Source: Oceanivirga miroungae (GTDB lineage: Bacteria; Fusobacteriota; Fusobacteriia; Fusobacteriales; Leptotrichiaceae). Taken from it: 64,000 nucleotides of DNA. The stretch is from positions 944,688 to 1,008,687 of the forward strand of contig NZ_CABWIB010000001.1 of NCBI RefSeq assembly GCF_902505095.1, written 5' to 3'. Position 1 is the stretch's first letter; each line of letters starts with the position of its first letter. The translations under genes and the position numbers were made by a program. The notes below the pieces were generated by a model. That model had not been told where the DNA came from. It saw only the letters and a program-made list of their open reading frames with translations, and did not search any database. Positions 37,330 to 45,682 of the stretch are shown one piece after another.

Positions 37330-38031
37330 CTATAATATTTTAAATCCTAATTTTTCAATATCTTCTGCAAAAGTTTTAACTGTTTGATAAGATAATTCTT
37401 CTAAACTTGTTCCTCTTTTACTATATTTATATATCATTTCATTTGGAACTGTTATAATATCTACACCTAGCTCATTCGCTTGATGAATATTATAAATTTC
37501 TCTCGTACTTGCCCATAAAAGTAAAGCATTTTTCTTTTCACTACATATTTTTACAGCTTCTTTCATTATAGGCATATGATCATAACCAGCATCTGATATT
37601 CTTCCTGCAAATACAGAAACATAAGCTTTTGTATTTGGATTTAATGCAGCAACTGTTTCTTTTATTTGCTCTATTGAATAAATAGCTGTTACATTAACCT
37701 TAATATTTTCATCACTTAGTTTTTTTATTAAATCTTTTGTGCTTTTTCTATCTATTGTCATTATTGGGATTTTAACATAAACATTATCACCCCAACTTGA
37801 AATTTCTTTTGCTTCTTTGTACATTTCTTCTAAATCATTAGAAAAAACTTCAAATGAAACTGGTACTTCACTAATTTTAGATAAAACTTCTTTTGAAAAT
37901 TTTTTATAATCAGTAACTCCACCTTTTTTCATAAGCGATGGATTTGTTGTAAAACCACTTACTAATCCACTTTCATACATTTTTAACATTTCTTCTATAT
38001 TTGCACCATCCGCAAAAATTTTTACTGACAT
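37330..38031 (-). CDS. Transaldolase-like aldolase (FSA/TalC subfamily)
   Basis: 233 residues, a class I aldolase barrel of the small transaldolase/FSA type: FADGANIEEM, GFTTNPSLMKKGG, the Schiff-base Lys in NVYVKIPI, NVTAIYS, YVSVFAGRISDAGYD and a LLWASTREIYN strand. FSA enzymes cleave fructose-6-phosphate or act as transaldolase on pentose phosphates. Here the gene ends the ulaG-E-F unit, two bases after ulaF, where it would process the xylulose-5-phosphate made by the ascorbate pathway. It is not a decarboxylase of the UlaD family, which has a different active site. Confidence 0.88.
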   Translation of the reverse strand: MSVKIFADGANIEEMLKMYESGLVSGFTTNPSLMKKGGVTDYKKFSKEVLSKISEVPVSFEVFSNDLEEMYKEAKEISSWGDNVYVKIPIMTIDRKSTKDLIKKLSDENIKVNVTAIYSIEQIKETVAALNPNTKAYVSVFAGRISDAGYDHMPIMKEAVKICSEKKNALLLWASTREIYNIHQANELGVDIITVPNEMIYKYSKRGTSLEELSYQTVKTFAEDIEKLGFKIL

Positions 38032-38033
38032 AT

Positions 38034-38732
38034 TTATACCTCTACCTTATTTCCATAATAAGCATTTTTTCCATGTTTTCTATTATAGTGTTTATCTTGA
38101 ATGCTCTTAGGCGCTTCTTCAACTTCATTATTTATTATCTTAGTTAAAACTGCCATTTTTGCAACTTCCTCTAAAACAACTGCATTATATACAGCTTTTT
38201 TAGCATTTTCTCCCCATGCAAAAGATCCATGGTTTTTGCATAATACAGCCGGAGTTGCTACATAATCTCTATCCTTAAATGTTTCAATAATAACTTTACC
38301 AGTATTTAATTCATACGCACTTTCAATTTCTTCTTTTGTTAAATTTCTACTACAAGGTATTGTTCCATATATGCTATCTGCATGTGTTGTACCATAGCAT
38401 ATAATATCTTTACCTGCTTGAGCAAATGATGTCGCCCATGTAGAATGTGTATGAACTATTCCTCCAATTTTTTCAAAAGCTTTATATAACTCTACGTGTG
38501 TCGGTGTATCAGATGATGGTTTGTATTTACCTTCAACAACATTACCTTCAAGATCTACTACAACCATATCTTCTGGTTTTAGTTTATCATAATCAACCCC
38601 ACTTGGTTTTATTACAAAAAGTCCTTTTTCTCTATCAATTTCAGATACATTTCCCCAAGTAAATTTAACTAAGTTATATCTAGGTAAGTCCATATTAGCC
38701 TCATAAACTCTTTTTTTCATTTCCTCTAACAT
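38034..38732 (-). CDS. ulaF: L-ribulose-5-phosphate 4-epimerase UlaF
   Basis: 232 residues, class II aldolase/epimerase: VKFTWGNVSEID, the substrate loop VIKPSGVDYDKL, the metal-binding VHTHSTWATSFAQAG and the late HGSFAWGENAKKAV. It converts L-ribulose-5-phosphate to D-xylulose-5-phosphate. It shares one base with ulaE (TAATG). AraD has the same fold, but the position beside ulaE and ulaG favours UlaF. Confidence 0.94.
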   Translation of the reverse strand: MLEEMKKRVYEANMDLPRYNLVKFTWGNVSEIDREKGLFVIKPSGVDYDKLKPEDMVVVDLEGNVVEGKYKPSSDTPTHVELYKAFEKIGGIVHTHSTWATSFAQAGKDIICYGTTHADSIYGTIPCSRNLTKEEIESAYELNTGKVIIETFKDRDYVATPAVLCKNHGSFAWGENAKKAVYNAVVLEEVAKMAVLTKIINNEVEEAPKSIQDKHYNRKHGKNAYYGNKVEV

Positions 38733-39586
38733 TAATATTCACCCTCTATTTTATCTAGCATTTCTCTAAATGTTTTAACTGCAAATCTTAAATCCACTTT
38801 AAAATCTTCTGCTCCTGTATACCAAAGTTCAGTTACATATCTTCTAACCCCTATTTTATATAGTTCAGTTAAACATTCATAAAAATTAACATGCCCAGTT
38901 AAAAATGGTATTTCTCTATAATGACCTGGTATAGATTCTTTTATATGAGCTGCAACAGTTTTCCCTTTTCCTAGTCTTATATCATCTAAAACATCATTAT
39001 TGTATATTACAGAAGCATTTTTAATATTACCTAAATCAGGGTATATCATTAAAAACGGTGAATTAATATACTCTACAACTTCTTTCGCTTTTTTTACAGT
39101 ATCCATAAAGTCTGTTTCCATAGTTTCAAAAGCTAGTAAAACTCCATATTTAGCTGCAATTTCAACCCCTTTTTGTAGGTTTTCTAAGAAATATTTACGA
39201 GTTATTTCATTTCCTTTTCCTTCATAATACACATCATAACCTGCTAATTGTATTACACGAATACCTAAATCATTAGCTAGTATTATTGCCTTTTCTAAAA
39301 TTTCTAAACTTTTTATTCTAGTAGCTTCGTCCATAGATCCTAGCGGAAATTTTCTTTGACCTGATAATGCCATAGATCTAAAATCAATTCCTACCTTTTT
39401 CATATCCATTACTAACTGATCTCTTTCTTCTTTTGACCAATCAAGTCTTGATAATTTTTCAGGTGTTTCATCAACACTTAGTTCTATAAAGTCATATCCA
39501 ACTTCTTTAGCTGCTACTAATTTTTCATAAAGAGTAAGGCTATTGGGCATAGCCTTTTCATATACTCCTAATACATATTTTTTCAT
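38732..39586 (-). CDS. ulaE: L-xylulose-5-phosphate 3-epimerase UlaE
   Basis: 284 residues, TIM-barrel sugar epimerase: YDFIELSVDETPEKLSRLDW, RSMALSGQRKFPLGS, QLAGYDVYYEGK, FETMETDFMDTV, YPDLGNIKNA, GHVNFYECL and VTELWYTGAEDF. These match the UlaE/SgbU family. It converts L-xylulose-5-phosphate to L-ribulose-5-phosphate. Second gene of the ulaG-E-F-transaldolase unit. Confidence 0.95.
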   Translation of the reverse strand: MKKYVLGVYEKAMPNSLTLYEKLVAAKEVGYDFIELSVDETPEKLSRLDWSKEERDQLVMDMKKVGIDFRSMALSGQRKFPLGSMDEATRIKSLEILEKAIILANDLGIRVIQLAGYDVYYEGKGNEITRKYFLENLQKGVEIAAKYGVLLAFETMETDFMDTVKKAKEVVEYINSPFLMIYPDLGNIKNASVIYNNDVLDDIRLGKGKTVAAHIKESIPGHYREIPFLTGHVNFYECLTELYKIGVRRYVTELWYTGAEDFKVDLRFAVKTFREMLDKIEGEY

Positions 39587-39597
39587 ACTTTTATTCC

Positions 39598-40662
39598 TTA
39601 TAATATTTGTAAGAATGGTAAATCTGGTTCTAATTCAAAAGCATCTTCAAATCCACGTGGATACATATATTCTCTGTCATCTTTGTTATCTGGGAAGATG
39701 AATTTTCCACCTGGTTGCCATATATATGGTTTGAATTTATATCTCATTCTATTTTTTCTCATTTCATATAGAACTTCAATTTCTTTAGGATCTGCCATAA
39801 AGTTTGTCCATATATCATAGTGAATCGGTATTATTACTTGTGTATCTAAGCTTTCTGCAACTTTTAATACATCAGAAGAAGTTAATTTATCAGTCATTCC
39901 TCTTGGATTTTCTCCGTATCCTACTAATGCAACATCAATCTTATGATCTCTTGCATGTTTAACATAGTAGTTTGAGTAATGTGAATCTCCTGCATGATAT
40001 ATATTTCCACCTTTAGTTTTAACTATATAGTTTACCGCTAAATCGTCCATGTTTGGTGGCATTTTCCCTTTTAATACATCATCATCATTTGCAACTGTTA
40101 ATAACATTGTTCTATCAAATGATTCAACCATACATATTTTCATATCTTTAATTTCTACTTCATCCCCTGGTCTTACTTCAACCATTCTATCTTCTGGTAC
40201 TCCCCATTTTCTCCATAAGTCTGTACAAGATTTAGGACCTATAAATTTAGCTTCAGGGCAATTTTGAACTATAGCTGCTGCTACATTTACATCTATATGG
40301 TCACTATGACTATGAGTTGCTAAAACAGCATCTATTTTTTTAATTTTAAATGGATCTATAATACAAGGTGTTTTTCTTAAGTTTGGTTGTAATCTAACAC
40401 ATCCTACTGCTCTTTGGTGTTGATGTTTAGGTTTCATAAATGGATTAGTTTTTGTTTTTTTACCAGTTGACACCCATAAGTCAATTACTATATTAGCATC
40501 TCCTTCTGTTTTTATCCATGTACCCATATTTCCAAGCCACCACATTGCAACTTTATTAGGTTCTACAATTTCACTTTCTATTTCTTCATTAATCCAAGTC
40601 CCCCATTCAGGAAAAGTACTTAGTATCCAATCTTCTCTTGATAATTCATTGATTTTTGACAT
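39598..40662 (-). CDS. ulaG: L-ascorbate-6-phosphate lactonase UlaG
   Basis: 354 residues from ATG at 40662, eight bases after AAGGAAG; an upstream GTG in frame lies within the ribosome site. It has the metallo-beta-lactamase motif [46 protein letters not shown] and [14 protein letters not shown], all typical of UlaG. It hydrolyses the lactone of L-ascorbate-6-phosphate to 3-keto-L-gulonate-6-phosphate in the cytosol. The expected next enzyme, UlaD, is missing from the cluster. Confidence 0.97.
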
Positions 40663-40696
40663 TTTTTTCACTTCCTTAATTTTTTTTAGATTTTTT

Positions 40697-40870: not shown

Positions 40871-42334
40871 TTAACTGTTTTTTTCAGTTGTTTTTTCAAA
40901 AATCCTAATAATATCTATTTTATTCATTAAACTATCTACTATTATTGTATCAAAATTTGAATTTATATCTATTTCTGTGCTCACAATTAAATCAATATCT
41001 AATTTTTCATATACTTGCAAGGCATTTTTATCTATAACAGAAACTATTTCTACATTTGAAATATAGTCTTGTATTTTTTTCACTATATTTCTTTTTATAA
41101 TTTCTTCTTCATTACTTATAATTAAGATCTTTGTTTTTTTCTTTTCTATAAATAATAAAAACTGCATAACTATACTTGCTATATCATACTCATTAAATTT
41201 TAAATTCTCTTTTTTTACTATATTTTTTACTATATCATGTAAATATTTATATTCTTTACTTATCTTATCATAATCCAAATCAACAAAAATTATATTATAC
41301 TTATTTCTAAAATATTGTACTTTTAAATATGTAACTAAACTATCTATAGCTTTTTCTCTATCATTAATTCTGATATTTGACTCTAACTCAAAATCATCAA
41401 CAATTTTTTTAGCTAAATTATAGTGCTTTACATAATCTTTACTTGAATTATGTATATCTGTCATTTTTCTAGTACATAGTAATATTAAACTTGATAATAA
41501 CTTTATTTTCTCCTCTATTACTATATTATACTCGCTTTCAAATACACTACAAATTTCCCCAATCACCTTATACTCTAGTCTTTCTTTTAAAACATTTAAT
41601 TTTTTTTCAATAGTTTTACCCTTTGTTTTTTTTGAAAATAGGTATATATACGGTAGCGAGAATGCATAGTTTTCAACTGATTTATTAGACATTGTCTTAC
41701 CTAGTCTATTTTGCAAATATTGCATTTTTTCCATCAGATTTTGAAAAAATTCTTCACTAAATATCTTATCAATATCCTTGTACATTTTTTTTATAAACAT
41801 ATTAATATTGGTATTTTTTAGCCTAGTTATTTTTTTTATTAATCTGTATATATACTGTATCTGTATAAGCTCATCACCTTTTAAATAATATCCTAGTTTA
41901 GGACTGTATTCCATTTTAATATTTTTATTAAATTTTAAAATTTCCTCTTTTATGTACTGTATATCCGATAATATAGAATTTTTACTTGTCTTAAACATTT
42001 CAATAAAATCATTTATAGTTTGTCTTTTAGGGTATGTTGTTATAAATAAAGCTATAATTAATCTTCTTTCATTTTTATTAAATATGTATTCAAGATCACA
42101 TAATATAGTTTCTAAAATATCTTTTTGATTTTTATCTAATACTATTCCATTTTTATTATCATTAATAATTAATTTTATATTTTTCTTTTTTAGCTGATCA
42201 TTTATTTTTTCTATGTTATAGTATACTACACTTCTGCTTTTTGATAAATTTGATGCTATTTTGGATATACTTATACCATCTTTATTTGAGATTAAAATAT
42301 TTACTATCTCATAAAAACTCTTATCACTATACAT
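40871..42334 (-). CDS. PRD-domain transcriptional regulator of the PTS type (BglG/LicR-like)
   Basis: 487 residues. An N-terminal HTH (ISISKIASNLSKSRSVVYYNIEKIND) and a second HTH (SKNSILSDIQYIKEEI) are followed by two PRD-like helical regions and an EIIB-like C-terminal domain (KTKILIISNEEEIIKRNI). The usual EIIB Cys after this strand is Ser-Asn here, so the phosphorylation site is missing, and there is no EIIA domain. Such regulators sense PTS phosphorylation. It lies in the ulaC-A-B operon, so it is the obvious candidate to control both ula units. Confidence 0.85.
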   Translation of the reverse strand: MYSDKSFYEIVNILISNKDGISISKIASNLSKSRSVVYYNIEKINDQLKKKNIKLIINDNKNGIVLDKNQKDILETILCDLEYIFNKNERRLIIALFITTYPKRQTINDFIEMFKTSKNSILSDIQYIKEEILKFNKNIKMEYSPKLGYYLKGDELIQIQYIYRLIKKITRLKNTNINMFIKKMYKDIDKIFSEEFFQNLMEKMQYLQNRLGKTMSNKSVENYAFSLPYIYLFSKKTKGKTIEKKLNVLKERLEYKVIGEICSVFESEYNIVIEEKIKLLSSLILLCTRKMTDIHNSSKDYVKHYNLAKKIVDDFELESNIRINDREKAIDSLVTYLKVQYFRNKYNIIFVDLDYDKISKEYKYLHDIVKNIVKKENLKFNEYDIASIVMQFLLFIEKKKTKILIISNEEEIIKRNIVKKIQDYISNVEIVSVIDKNALQVYEKLDIDLIVSTEIDINSNFDTIIVDSLMNKIDIIRIFEKTTEKNS

Positions 42335-42337
42335 AAG

Positions 42338-43387
42338 CTATTTTTCTAATATGTATAAAGCAATTTCATCAGTTTCTCTATTTGCAGCTATTAAATATTC
42401 TTTGCCATCTTTAACAAAGTAGTTTATATTAGCAGCTCCAAATCCTTTATCAATTATTTCATATACATACTCACCATCAATATATCTTAGAACAAATGTT
42501 ATCATTTCGTCTCTTCTATTTCCTAGAACACAAACATTTTCACTATTTAATTTTCCAGACCATATTGCATGTAAAAAAGTTATATCTTCAGGAAATTCCT
42601 TTGCTAATTCAAATTTACCATCTTTTTTTCTGTAAACTCTTAATTTATGACCATGAAATGGTGATATAGCTACTAATTCATCTACACCATCATTATCTAA
42701 GTCAATTAATGTTGCATCACTAGCTGCATCAGATACTAATTTTTCTATATCCCAATTCTCACCTTTTTTCTTTGGTGGAGTATATAAATATACACCACTG
42801 TCACAAGATACAATTGCTTTTTCTAAACCATCTTCTATATGCTTATAGTACCCATGATTTTTTAGCATATCTTCTTGTATTACAGTAAAATCTTCTTCTT
42901 TTAAAACCTCACAATTATCTAAATCACTTGGTAATTCTATAAAATATGTTTTACCTGGTTTTGTCCAGTCATCTTTATACTCATGACCTGATTTTAATGC
43001 ACAAACTAGTATGTATTTAGTTCCATCTTCTGCTTTTAACACATCAAATCTATGTGCAAAAGGAACTTCTGCTATTATCCTTACTGAAAAGTTATAGTTA
43101 TTATCTAGTGGTTTTACATACACGATTCTTGCTTCTTTTGAATCATTTGGTGAATGGAATTTTTGAGTCGCTAAAAATGCTCCATTTGCGTTTTCCAGCG
43201 GTATTATACTCATTGTCCCACCTGGTTCTTGCCAAATAGTAGCTTTTTTTTCTAAATTATGATTGTATAAAAAACATTCATCTTGTTTTTCAGCAGCTAC
43301 CACTATATGGTGTTCCCCATTATATTCGATATTTGCCATTTGGTAGCATTTATTTAGTTTATCTAATACTTGTTTTCTAAATTTCAT
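42338..43387 (-). CDS. Cytosolic beta-propeller protein in the ascorbate operon, unknown function
   Basis: 349 residues without signal peptide or membrane segment. Repeating strand blocks of about 45-50 residues suggest a six- or seven-bladed beta-propeller. One blade holds an FG-GAP/VCBS-type calcium loop, DLDNDGVDELVAIS. His-bearing loops recur at similar blade positions (FAHRFDVL, NHGYYKH, ISPFHGHKLRVY, TFLHAIWSG), as expected for a metal site at the propeller axis, so it could be an enzyme. It lies between ulaB and the regulator, 3 bases before the latter and behind a hairpin from ulaB. No known ula gene corresponds. Confidence 0.75.
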   Translation of the reverse strand: MKFRKQVLDKLNKCYQMANIEYNGEHHIVVAAEKQDECFLYNHNLEKKATIWQEPGGTMSIIPLENANGAFLATQKFHSPNDSKEARIVYVKPLDNNYNFSVRIIAEVPFAHRFDVLKAEDGTKYILVCALKSGHEYKDDWTKPGKTYFIELPSDLDNCEVLKEEDFTVIQEDMLKNHGYYKHIEDGLEKAIVSCDSGVYLYTPPKKKGENWDIEKLVSDAASDATLIDLDNDGVDELVAISPFHGHKLRVYRKKDGKFELAKEFPEDITFLHAIWSGKLNSENVCVLGNRRDEMITFVLRYIDGEYVYEIIDKGFGAANINYFVKDGKEYLIAANRETDEIALYILEK

Positions 43388-43402: not shown

Positions 43403-43427
43403 AAAAGGGCAGAAATACTGCCCTTTA
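43403..43427 (-). terminator. Hairpin between ulaB and the beta-propeller gene
   Basis: Minus strand AAAGGGCAG-TATTT-CTGCCCTTT, nine perfect pairs, with a T-run of only four before AAAAAGGAG. It could end a part of the transcripts or protect the ulaC-A-B mRNA end; it is too weak in T to be a full terminator. Confidence 0.6.
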
Positions 43428-43434
43428 TTTTTAT

Positions 43435-43728
43435 TTATTCAGTAATTACTCCTGCTTCTTTTAATTTTTGTTCCATTTCTTGAGCACTCATAGGATTTTT
43501 TAATCCAATTACTATTTTACCAGCATCCACAGCTGATTTGAATTCATTTATAAAAGCTTGAGGACATAATGTTACATCAAAGCTTTTTGCTTGTCCTTTT
43601 CCTTCTGATAATGAGCAGTGATGAATTTTTGTGCATTTAATATTGTTTTTCTTTATAACCTTATCTGCTGTTAATTTCATCATTAAACTTGTTCCTGCTC
43701 CATTAGCACATGATACTAAAAATGTCAT
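43435..43728 (-). CDS. ulaB: PTS EIIB component, L-ascorbate type (UlaB)
   Basis: 97 residues. Phosphorylation Cys in FLVSCANGAGTSLMMK at residue 7, followed by KIHHCSLSEGKGQA and VIGLKNPMSAQEM. It passes phosphate from UlaC to ascorbate during transport. Two bases separate it from ulaA. Confidence 0.93.
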   Translation of the reverse strand: MTFLVSCANGAGTSLMMKLTADKVIKKNNIKCTKIHHCSLSEGKGQAKSFDVTLCPQAFINEFKSAVDAGKIVIGLKNPMSAQEMEQKLKEAGVITE

Positions 43729-43730
43729 AT

Positions 43731-45224
43731 TTATTCCCCTTTTTCTTCTTGTCTTCTCTTATATTCTTCAAAATCTTCTGTTATTAAGAAGTAATTTTCT
43801 TTGTCTTTTAAGTATTGTAATTGAGGTATTAAGATTAATACTATTACAATAAGTGCAACTCCTGCATAGCTTAAGTATTTCATTATAACTGTGAATACAG
43901 GCCATACTACTGCCCAGTCCCACATTCCTAAGTATCCACCATAAGCTGCCATTCCTACCCAGCTAGCTATGAATGCTGAACCGAATACTTGACATAATCC
44001 TGCTATGAATGGGAATATTAATGTTGCTTTTAATCCACCTTTATTATTTGCATAAACCCCAATTGTAGCGTTATCGAAGAATACTGGAACGAATCCTGCA
44101 ACAACTAAAACTGGTGATTTTAAAGCTATTAAAGTTGCTATTGCAATACCTTGTCCTATTGCACCTGCTAAGAATCCAATAGTTATAGCATTTGGTGATC
44201 CAAAGTTATATGATATAGCACAGTCAACTCCTGGAACAGCTCCTGGTAATAATTTATCAGATATTCCTTTAAAGCTTTGTGTTAATTCTGATATGAATGT
44301 TCTAACTCCTAATTGTAATATTGCTAAGTAAACAGCAAATTTTAATGAAGTTTCAACTATATAGAAGAATAAATTTTGTCCTGGTTTCATAAATCCAGCT
44401 TCTATTAAGAATGGTTTACCTAATGCTAATAAAATTCCTCCAAAGAACATTAACATTAATACTCCTGTTGCAACCATGTTATCGTTAAATATTGACATCC
44501 AACCTGGTAATTCTATATCTTCTATTCTCTTACTTGAAGTTTTACCTTTAGCTCTATCTCTTTTAGCCATTTTTTCAGCTAACCAAGTAAATAAAGCAAT
44601 ACCAAACATTTGTTGGTGAGCTATTGTAAATCCAGCACCATCTGTTAATTCTTGTGAGTATCTAACTAATAAGTTTGATCCAACTGCCCAGTATAGCCCT
44701 AAGATTACAGCCATAACTATTAATAATTTCACATCACTAGTTACTAATGCAGGTAATGCAAATAAGATTAACCAATAAGCAGTAGATGCTTGTTGTAATT
44801 GTACGTGACCTGTTGTAAATACTGATCTTAGTTTAGTAATTCTAGAAAATCTTACTAAAATTAAGTTTGTAATAAATGCTATTGCAAGTAATAAAACTAC
44901 ATTACTAAATGATTTACCAAAAACTTTTTCAACACCTGCTTGAACTGCGTTTTGTCCAAAATATGGATCTATTACCATAGCTGATAAATGGAATTTATCT
45001 CTTAATCCTACTAATATAGGTCTAAAACTTACTACTAATCCACCTGACCCAGCACTTAAAATCATAAATCCAACAATTGCTTTAATTGTACCACTTAAAG
45101 TTTCATACCAAGATTTTCTTAATAATAGATACCCTAATAGCACCATAAACCCAATGAAAAAATGTGGTTTAGTTAAAATATTTGCATAAAATATTTGCCA
45201 AATTCCACCTAATACTTCTAACAT
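43731..45224 (-). CDS. ulaA: PTS EIIC component, L-ascorbate type (UlaA)
   Basis: 497 residues with about 11 membrane segments, of the EIIC-GAT/SgaT family. It shows HFFIGFMVLLGYLLLRKSW, GFMILSAGSGGLVVSFRPI, IAHQQMFGIALFTWLAEKMA and GAVPGVDCAISYNFGSPNA, which are SgaT/UlaA motifs. It imports and phosphorylates L-ascorbate with UlaB and UlaC. The C-terminus is a charged tail (EDFEEYKRRQEEKGE). Confidence 0.95.
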   Translation of the reverse strand: MLEVLGGIWQIFYANILTKPHFFIGFMVLLGYLLLRKSWYETLSGTIKAIVGFMILSAGSGGLVVSFRPILVGLRDKFHLSAMVIDPYFGQNAVQAGVEKVFGKSFSNVVLLLAIAFITNLILVRFSRITKLRSVFTTGHVQLQQASTAYWLILFALPALVTSDVKLLIVMAVILGLYWAVGSNLLVRYSQELTDGAGFTIAHQQMFGIALFTWLAEKMAKRDRAKGKTSSKRIEDIELPGWMSIFNDNMVATGVLMLMFFGGILLALGKPFLIEAGFMKPGQNLFFYIVETSLKFAVYLAILQLGVRTFISELTQSFKGISDKLLPGAVPGVDCAISYNFGSPNAITIGFLAGAIGQGIAIATLIALKSPVLVVAGFVPVFFDNATIGVYANNKGGLKATLIFPFIAGLCQVFGSAFIASWVGMAAYGGYLGMWDWAVVWPVFTVIMKYLSYAGVALIVIVLILIPQLQYLKDKENYFLITEDFEEYKRRQEEKGE

Positions 45225-45235
45225 ACTAACTCCTC

Positions 45236-45682
45236 CTATATATCATATTTTTCTGATAATCTTTTTATATCATCTATATTTCTAACATTAAATAATTCTT
45301 CTTTTAAATCATCATTTCCTAATACTTCCATTAATTTTTGCATATTTTCTATATGTTTTTCTGGATTAACACTAGCTAGTGTAAAAAATAGCACTGATTT
45401 ATTTTCTTCATCAAATTCTACTTCTTTTTCAAACTTAGTGAATGCAATTTCTGTTTCAAAAACATTTACTCCTCCTTGTGTTGAGTGTGGCATTGCAATT
45501 CCTTCATCAATACATATATATGGACCATATTTATCAACAGATGCTACTAATTCATTTATATAATCTTTGCTTACTATTTTCTTTTCTATAAGTTTACTAC
45601 AACTTTTTGCAATTGCATCTTTCCAGTCACTAGCATCATCATAGAATGCACATAAATCTTTTTTTATTAGTTCTTTTAGCAT
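45236..45682 (-). CDS. ulaC: PTS EIIA component, L-ascorbate type (UlaC)
   Basis: 148 residues, EIIA of the mannitol/fructose fold used by ascorbate systems. The phosphorylated His is in YICIDEGIAMPHSTQGGV. SVLFFTLASVNPEKHIENMQ is a further typical region. It is the first gene of the ulaC-A-B unit, 11 bases from ulaA. Confidence 0.94.
   Translation of the reverse strand: MLKELIKKDLCAFYDDASDWKDAIAKSCSKLIEKKIVSKDYINELVASVDKYGPYICIDEGIAMPHSTQGGVNVFETEIAFTKFEKEVEFDEENKSVLFFTLASVNPEKHIENMQKLMEVLGNDDLKEELFNVRNIDDIKRLSEKYDI

Follow-up and report, generated by a model that had tools for sequence, protein, structure and literature searches.

A predicted seven-bladed beta-propeller protein, here termed PROP and assignable to no named enzyme family, very probably performs the decarboxylation carried out by UlaD in L-ascorbate breakdown, using an unrelated fold. 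We infer this activity from a comparison of genomes and from the predicted structure. PROP was found in ula operons exactly where UlaD was missing, and therefore most likely does UlaD's step. In the proposed pathway, the phosphotransferase system (PTS) would yield L-ascorbate-6-phosphate, and UlaG would open its lactone to give 3-keto-L-gulonate-6-phosphate. PROP would decarboxylate this compound to L-xylulose-5-phosphate and CO2, and UlaE and UlaF together would convert L-xylulose-5-phosphate to D-xylulose-5-phosphate. In a literature search, outside which most subscription papers and preprints lay, no paper turned up that describes a propeller decarboxylase or connects a propeller with UlaD, ascorbate breakdown, or ula operons. 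Pseudogenes of ulaD are described in two Erysipelothrix strains, and the excerpts of that paper report no replacement (PMC7873064).

In the window, which is the whole 64,000-nucleotide stretch of DNA analyzed here, PROP was encoded at 43387..42338 on the minus strand (349 aa), with an ATG start and a purine-rich ribosome-binding site upstream of it. The original prediction had placed an open reading frame of 349 residues after ulaC-A-B, which was confirmed and assigned to the minus strand. Its description of the operon was correct for the three PTS genes before PROP and left ulaG, ulaE, and ulaF, which come after PROP, unmentioned. The minus-strand genes were tightly packed in the following order:

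45236..45682, minus strand: PTS EIIA (UlaC-like), from Pfam and NCBIfam scans
43731..45224, minus strand: PTS EIIC (UlaA-like), from Pfam and NCBIfam scans
43435..43728, minus strand: PTS EIIB (UlaB-like), from Pfam and NCBIfam scans
42338..43387, minus strand: PROP, predicted seven-bladed propeller protein with a proposed role at the UlaD step, from the open reading frame, predicted fold, and genome comparison
40871..42334, minus strand: HTH/PRD transcriptional regulator that begins 3 bases beyond the stop codon of PROP, from domain matches
39598..40671, minus strand: UlaG, L-ascorbate-6-phosphate lactonase, from NF008688 (592.6 bits, cut-off 306)
38732..39586, minus strand: UlaE, 3-epimerase, from an epimerase model match
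38034..38732, minus strand: UlaF, L-ribulose-5-phosphate 4-epimerase, from an epimerase model match
37330..38031, minus strand: transaldolase of the TIGR02134 family, the final enzyme of the run, from a model match

The UlaA-like protein scored 389.4 bits against the ascorbate EIIC model NF006919.1 (cut-off 380) and fell under the cut-offs of the other matched EIIC models, including PRK09548. A model scan of the operon genes detected no ulaD. The genome (1.36 Mb, three contigs, 92% complete) carried PROP as a single copy and contained four PF00215 matches, of which only PyrF, flanked by pyrC-like and pyrE-like genes, exceeded the cut-off. The absence of UlaD noted in the original prediction thus held for the operon and for the 92% complete genome. 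In the gap between ulaB and PROP, a perfect 9-bp hairpin was observed just 5' of the PROP ribosome-binding site (window positions 43404-43426, minus strand; 56 nt folded, minimum free energy -14 kcal/mol, z -2.9). This hairpin may tune the expression of the PTS relative to that of the enzyme. The PRD/HTH regulator (42334-40871) showed a weak likeness to the AcpB/EbpR/MafR family, and it was also found beside PROP in L015-L017.

The occurrence of PROP, UlaG, and UlaD was compared in two groups of genomes. Among 200 Lachnospiraceae genomes, UlaG was present in 22 and PROP in 27, and all 22 genomes with UlaG also had PROP (Fisher p 7e-25). The remaining five of the 27 PROP genomes had no UlaG at the threshold used, so ascorbate breakdown is not the role of every PROP. 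A UlaD-like match (E<=1e-5) was obtained in 6 of the 22 UlaG genomes, and in five of these the matches were HPS-like relatives alone. The sixth, G131, had the only UlaD of the KGPDC type (47% identity, with the HxSRD motif), located on a contig other than that of PROP. Among 395 Bacilli genomes, 20 had UlaG; 14 of these had PROP and 8 had a UlaD-like protein (seven of the KGPDC type and one, in G506, HPS-like). All six Bacilli UlaG genomes without PROP had UlaD, and none lacked both (p 1.8e-4). G403 alone carried both: its PROP belonged to the ula operon (L153), and its UlaD lay on another contig (L162), where it adjoined a GatC-type EIIC.

When the UlaG genomes were pooled, PROP was present in 36 of 42, at least one of UlaD and PROP in 42 of 42, and both in 2 of 42 (Fisher p 5e-6). 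Two sample centres, G047 and G062, had been reached via PROP loci; without them the p values were 5e-24 for the association of UlaG with PROP and 2.6e-4 for that of UlaD against PROP. The co-occurrence with UlaG but not UlaD that the original prediction named as a check was observed, with PROP present in all Lachnospiraceae UlaG genomes and replacing UlaD. In the sampled genomes, PROP instead of UlaD serves most Lachnospiraceae UlaG operons and more than half of those in Bacilli, so a UlaD-based annotation would call such operons incomplete. If the assignment is correct, PROP fills a gap in the pathway, and the use of vitamin C could be read from the genomes of gut Firmicutes.

UlaD was also searched for in 49 PROP genomes, covering 49 of the 80 relatives' loci described below. 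Nothing was detected in 41 of them, and the other eight gave HPS-like matches only, at 27-35% identity. The motifs ELxGxW and HxSRD were seen in UlaD-type relatives, with HxSRD in 10 of 10 at >=45% identity (L114, L122-L130); both were absent from PROP (P0001). Because of this low identity, and because motifs of the H[TV]xxD type, as in hexulose-phosphate synthases (HPS), replaced HxSRD, the weak matches of the PROP genomes were not accepted as UlaD. A few of these matches showed HLPxD or HRE-type variants. A genome of the window's genus contained a UlaD relative at 33% identity with neither HxSRD nor HTxxD (L131, G019:C21:4304-4930).

To describe the neighborhoods, 176 relatives were confirmed in a scan of genome contigs, and the best 80 of the 176 by similarity were used. 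These were mainly from Lachnospiraceae and Selenomonadaceae, and also from Butyricicoccaceae, Clostridiaceae, Spirochaetota, and others. Together with eight loci from the window's own family they gave 88 neighborhoods, some on contigs that end early, in which UlaE was found in 79, UlaG in 69, UlaF in 66, UlaB in 61, UlaA in 60, and UlaD in none; because the 80 were chosen by similarity, these counts are not a random sample, and the Lachnospiraceae and Bacilli samples are fairer. In 13 Bacilli PROP neighborhoods, UlaE, UlaF, and UlaB were present in 13 each, UlaG, UlaA, and UlaC in 12 each, and UlaD in none. Overall, UlaD was found in 0 of 101 PROP neighborhoods and PROP in 0 of 8 UlaD neighborhoods.

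In Bacilli the operon was often limited to UlaG-UlaC-UlaA-UlaB-PROP-UlaF-UlaE, its genes lying 2-91 bp apart (L148-L151, L153, L155, L158, L160). These compact operons thus leave a single gene, PROP, and a single step, the decarboxylation, unassigned. In operons of the UlaD type, UlaD followed EIIB (L163-L167) or EIIA (L168, L169, L174). The same slot was occupied by UlaD in UlaG-C-A-B-UlaD-E-F (L167) and by PROP in UlaG-C-A-B-PROP-F-E (L149-L151, L153, L155, L158). In the window's own family, the two arrangements were UlaG-A-B-C-UlaD-E-F-HTH (L168, L169) and UlaG-A-B-C-E-F-HTH-PROP (L012-L014). A transaldolase was considered as the UlaD replacement and rejected, being present in just 8 of the 88 PROP loci and 1 of the 13 Bacilli PROP loci.

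UlaD/SgbH (KGPDC) resembles PROP in the proposed reaction, in its operon slot, and in its co-occurrence with UlaG, UlaE, and UlaF, and the two are mutually exclusive inside ula operons. UlaD is a TIM barrel. It has about 216 aa and belongs to PF00215, whereas PROP is a predicted propeller of 349 aa, and a Pfam scan gave no match to PF00215; the two are not homologous. On a UlaG tree of 93 rows, built from UlaG frames of 330-420 aa with those outside that range left out, the UlaD/PROP label changed five times, and at least four changes were forced by starred branches. For L156, L172, and L173, whose contigs break, the label on this tree was taken from the genome. The exchange of UlaD and PROP has thus recurred and does not reflect the history of a single lineage.

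The structure of PROP was predicted with AlphaFold2 from an 88-row alignment (pLDDT 96.0, pTM 0.93). It comprised seven four-stranded blades with 28 strands, and the N-terminal strand closed the ring. The propeller fold proposed in the original prediction was thus recovered, as were its calcium-type DxDNDG loop (DLDNDG, 229-234) and its recurring His loops, FAHRFD (110-115), NHGYYKH (177-183), FHGHK (244-248), and FLHAIW (271-276). No variation was seen at the histidines H112, H178, H245, and H273, either among the aligned homologues (88 of 88) or across the more divergent A3 set of PROP and 34 homologues at 24-70% identity to it (35 of 35), which is more than chance. Residues invariant across the 35 sequences of A3 were H112, R113, D140, W141, N177, H178, F244, H245, G246, H273, and R291. 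The codons of the four His and the loop lie as follows, with the His placed from the A3 alignment and predicted strands and the loop from the sequence and predicted strands:

43052..43054, minus strand: codon of H112, HRF motif, start of blade 3 strand A
42854..42856, minus strand: codon of H178, NHG motif, entrance of blade 4 strand A
42653..42655, minus strand: codon of H245, FHG motif, blade 5 B-C loop
42569..42571, minus strand: codon of H273, start of blade 6 strand A
42686..42703, minus strand: DLDNDG, residues 229-234, VCBS-type metal loop, blade 5 A-B loop

Blades and loops were assigned by hand from the DSSP string of the predicted structure. Loops D-A and B-C, located on a common face, had a conservation of 2.63 bits compared to 1.85 for the A-B and C-D loops (Mann-Whitney p 6.7e-6), and polar residues conserved at >=90% were mostly at strand-A starts and in B-C loops. 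In propeller enzymes the active site is usually at this face. By the topology of the prediction, the conserved His would lie on one face, around the propeller axis, as had been expected. The DLDNDG loop sat between predicted strands 224-228 and 237-242, and D229 and D233 were kept in >=90% of A3; it is probably a structural metal site on the face opposite the His.

PROP could also be a non-catalytic partner or sensor that binds, for example, a PRD regulator or a sugar phosphate. It adjoins a PRD regulator in the window and an HTH protein in L012-L014, and many propellers are binding scaffolds. However, the neighboring regulators vary by lineage, and the commonest neighbors of PROP are UlaE and UlaF. 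Moreover, the invariant His, Arg, Asp, and Asn cluster on one face in the manner of an active site, and PROP is complementary to an enzyme, UlaD. A sensor role was rejected on these grounds and appears highly improbable. The original prediction of an intracellular enzyme or sensor at the UlaD step was supported in its enzyme part, as a proposed activity, and its sensor part is not favored.

PROP gave zero NCBIfam matches, and no match was obtained in PHROGs or in plasmids. Against the Pfam FG-GAP models it scored 25.1 bits (cut-off 26.9) and 16.1 bits (cut-off 22.1), both sub-threshold, and its match to FG-GAP_3 was weak (2.7e-5). VCBS/FG-GAP propellers share with PROP the seven blades and a DxDxDG in the A-B loop. 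Extracellular binding scaffolds make up the majority of the described members, whereas PROP appears cytosolic and has a conserved His face. Neither a signal peptide nor a lipobox was evident when the sequence was inspected by eye (MKFRKQVLDKLNKCY...), in agreement with the original prediction of no signal peptide. In the part of the source that defines it, the VCBS metal loop is given as DxDxDG in the A-B loop (PMC8023676).

Foldseek placed LGI1 and aldos-2-ulose dehydratase (AUDH) at the top ranks for the predicted structure. The N-terminal propeller of AUDH from Phanerochaete chrysosporium (PDB 4a7k/4a7y/4a7z) was the best structural match (VIA-align Z 35.9, rmsd 2.5, 336 residues, 12% identity), followed by LGI1 (Z 29.1) and integrins (about 27). 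When the A3 profile was searched against 177,635 PDB sequences, AUDH was the only return at E<=10, with an E of 2.5 that is not significant alone and served as a lead next to the structural result. In this non-significant alignment the HR and FHG motifs paired, with HRF (H112) over chain position 155 and FHG (H245) over 294-296. PDB sequence searches with P0001 and with the A1 and A2 profiles gave nothing convincing, and the A1 and A2 profiles missed AUDH. P0001 did not match the AUDH family PF22301, and 3 of the 88 PROP members matched it (best E 5.8e-4); one of these matches scored 13.7 bits, below the cut-off of 27. Neither 392 Bacillota genomes nor 14 controls gave a hit when searched with PF22301, so this search is uninformative. 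PROP ends with the propeller, whereas AUDH carries cupin and lectin domains after it. The substrate of AUDH is unphosphorylated anhydrofructose, which it dehydrates. PROP is outside the AUDH family, and its putative site would resemble that of AUDH.

As reportedly described by Claesson et al. 2012, the AUDH propeller holds a catalytic Zn that polarises the keto group, and His155 is said to be proposed there as the acid/base. A metal ion stabilising the enolate beside a ketone, as in this chemistry, is what a beta-keto-acid decarboxylase needs. In PROP, at least two of H112, H178, H245, and H273 would hold a metal ion, probably Zn2+. The His-held metal would polarise the 3-keto group and stabilise the enediolate left after loss of CO2, and protonation of the enediolate would give L-xylulose-5-phosphate. 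The invariant R113 and R291 and the conserved K5 are candidates for binding the carboxylate and the phosphate. Our confidence in this metal mechanism, for which conservation, fold similarity, and the reported AUDH chemistry argue, is lower than in the assignment of the step.

Human C11orf54 (DUF1907, PF08925) provides a non-homologous precedent for the type of His-metal decarboxylation proposed in PROP. Its reaction is the same as that proposed for PROP, but on an unphosphorylated substrate; its alpha-beta-beta-alpha fold is unrelated to the propeller, and PROP did not match PF08925 in a Pfam scan up to E 0.1. To our knowledge, no propeller-fold decarboxylase is known. If the proposal is correct, the propeller fold gains a decarboxylase, and beta-keto-gulonate decarboxylation would then be known in three unrelated folds, those of UlaD, C11orf54, and PROP. 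C11orf54 decarboxylates 3-dehydro-L-gulonate with a Zn bound on three His (PMC12435205).

It is unlikely that PROP does another step on an intermediate of ascorbate breakdown, as an isomerase, dehydratase, or lyase, with CO2 being lost spontaneously or through an enzyme encoded elsewhere, for example a DUF1907 protein. Beta-keto acids can slowly lose CO2 unaided, and AUDH, the nearest solved structure, is a dehydratase. DUF1907 proteins are also present in some bacteria (PMC12435205). However, this explanation accounts neither for the mutual exclusion of PROP and UlaD in ula operons nor for the retention of the epimerases that use L-xylulose-5-phosphate in compact operons that have no further unassigned gene.

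PROP loci outside ula operons were also observed (L005/L010, L175-L177). The original prediction had regarded homologues unlinked to PTS or ula genes and lacking the His as evidence against it; unlinked homologues exist, and four of these loci, included in A3, keep all four His. In L010 and L011, PROP was found with a YiaL-like protein, a 2-hydroxyacid dehydrogenase, a GatC-type EIIC, an amidohydrolase-like protein, and an FGGY kinase (L010:6371-13227), and the same genomes carried UlaD in a ula operon (L168, L169). This operon possibly encodes an undescribed sugar-acid pathway. In G006 and G007, UlaD lay inside the ula operon and a divergent PROP belonged to a different operon. PROP was near a TctA/TctC carboxylate transporter, a xylose-isomerase-like protein, and a 2-hydroxyacid dehydrogenase in L176, near ThuA and Gfo/Idh/MocA proteins in L175, and near a sugar-type ABC transporter in L177. 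These non-ula members point to a broader family with keto sugar acids as substrates.

The operon in the window might likewise degrade a related sugar acid instead of ascorbate, with PROP doing a substrate-specific step. The divergent PROPs near a GatC-type PTS, FGGY kinase, and 2-hydroxyacid dehydrogenase (L010) or TctA/TctC (L176) are consistent with this, and the 2011 UlaG paper, in the part available, cautions that ula operons of distant relationship may be used for different metabolites (PMC3219644). However, UlaG of the window is far above the lactonase cut-off (592.6 against 306 bits), and UlaA passes NF006919.1, although it is under the cut-offs of the other models. We consider a different substrate quite improbable, and PROP would still be the decarboxylase if the substrate were another beta-keto acid. 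Taking PROP as the decarboxylase, we lean towards the view that it founds a family of beta-propeller decarboxylases built on an AUDH-type propeller, in which an axial His-metal site would stabilise the enediolate derived from a beta-keto sugar acid. Several swaps between PROP and the TIM-barrel UlaD would have taken place in bacteria of the gut and mouth, and the divergent members of the family would act on other keto sugar acids.

Several further arrangements were observed at PROP loci. In L023, L084, and L095, an FGGY kinase occurred with UlaG and PROP and without a PTS. In L023 (3881-11758), L026, and L027, UlaG and PROP were near an 800-aa frame, with an FGGY kinase-like gene replacing the PTS. 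The 800-aa protein of L023 is a relative of alpha-glucosidase/xylosidase, presumably of GH31, and these loci perhaps serve the use of glycosylated ascorbate. In L152 (5887-7758, G400), PROP lay in a single 624-aa frame with an upstream HAD/Cof-like phosphatase, labelled HAD by eye, a possible fusion. Cof-like hydrolases inserted in ula operons are mentioned in the part of the 2011 UlaG paper available (PMC3219644). A dedicated PTS enzyme I was found near PROP and ula genes in L045 (7134-8816) and L049 (7440-9125), and an 89-aa frame before enzyme I in L045 may be HPr. Two UlaG matches (G343:C20:24472-25539 and G444:C12:142861-143928) each contained one in-frame TGA, reflecting either recoding or a pseudogene.
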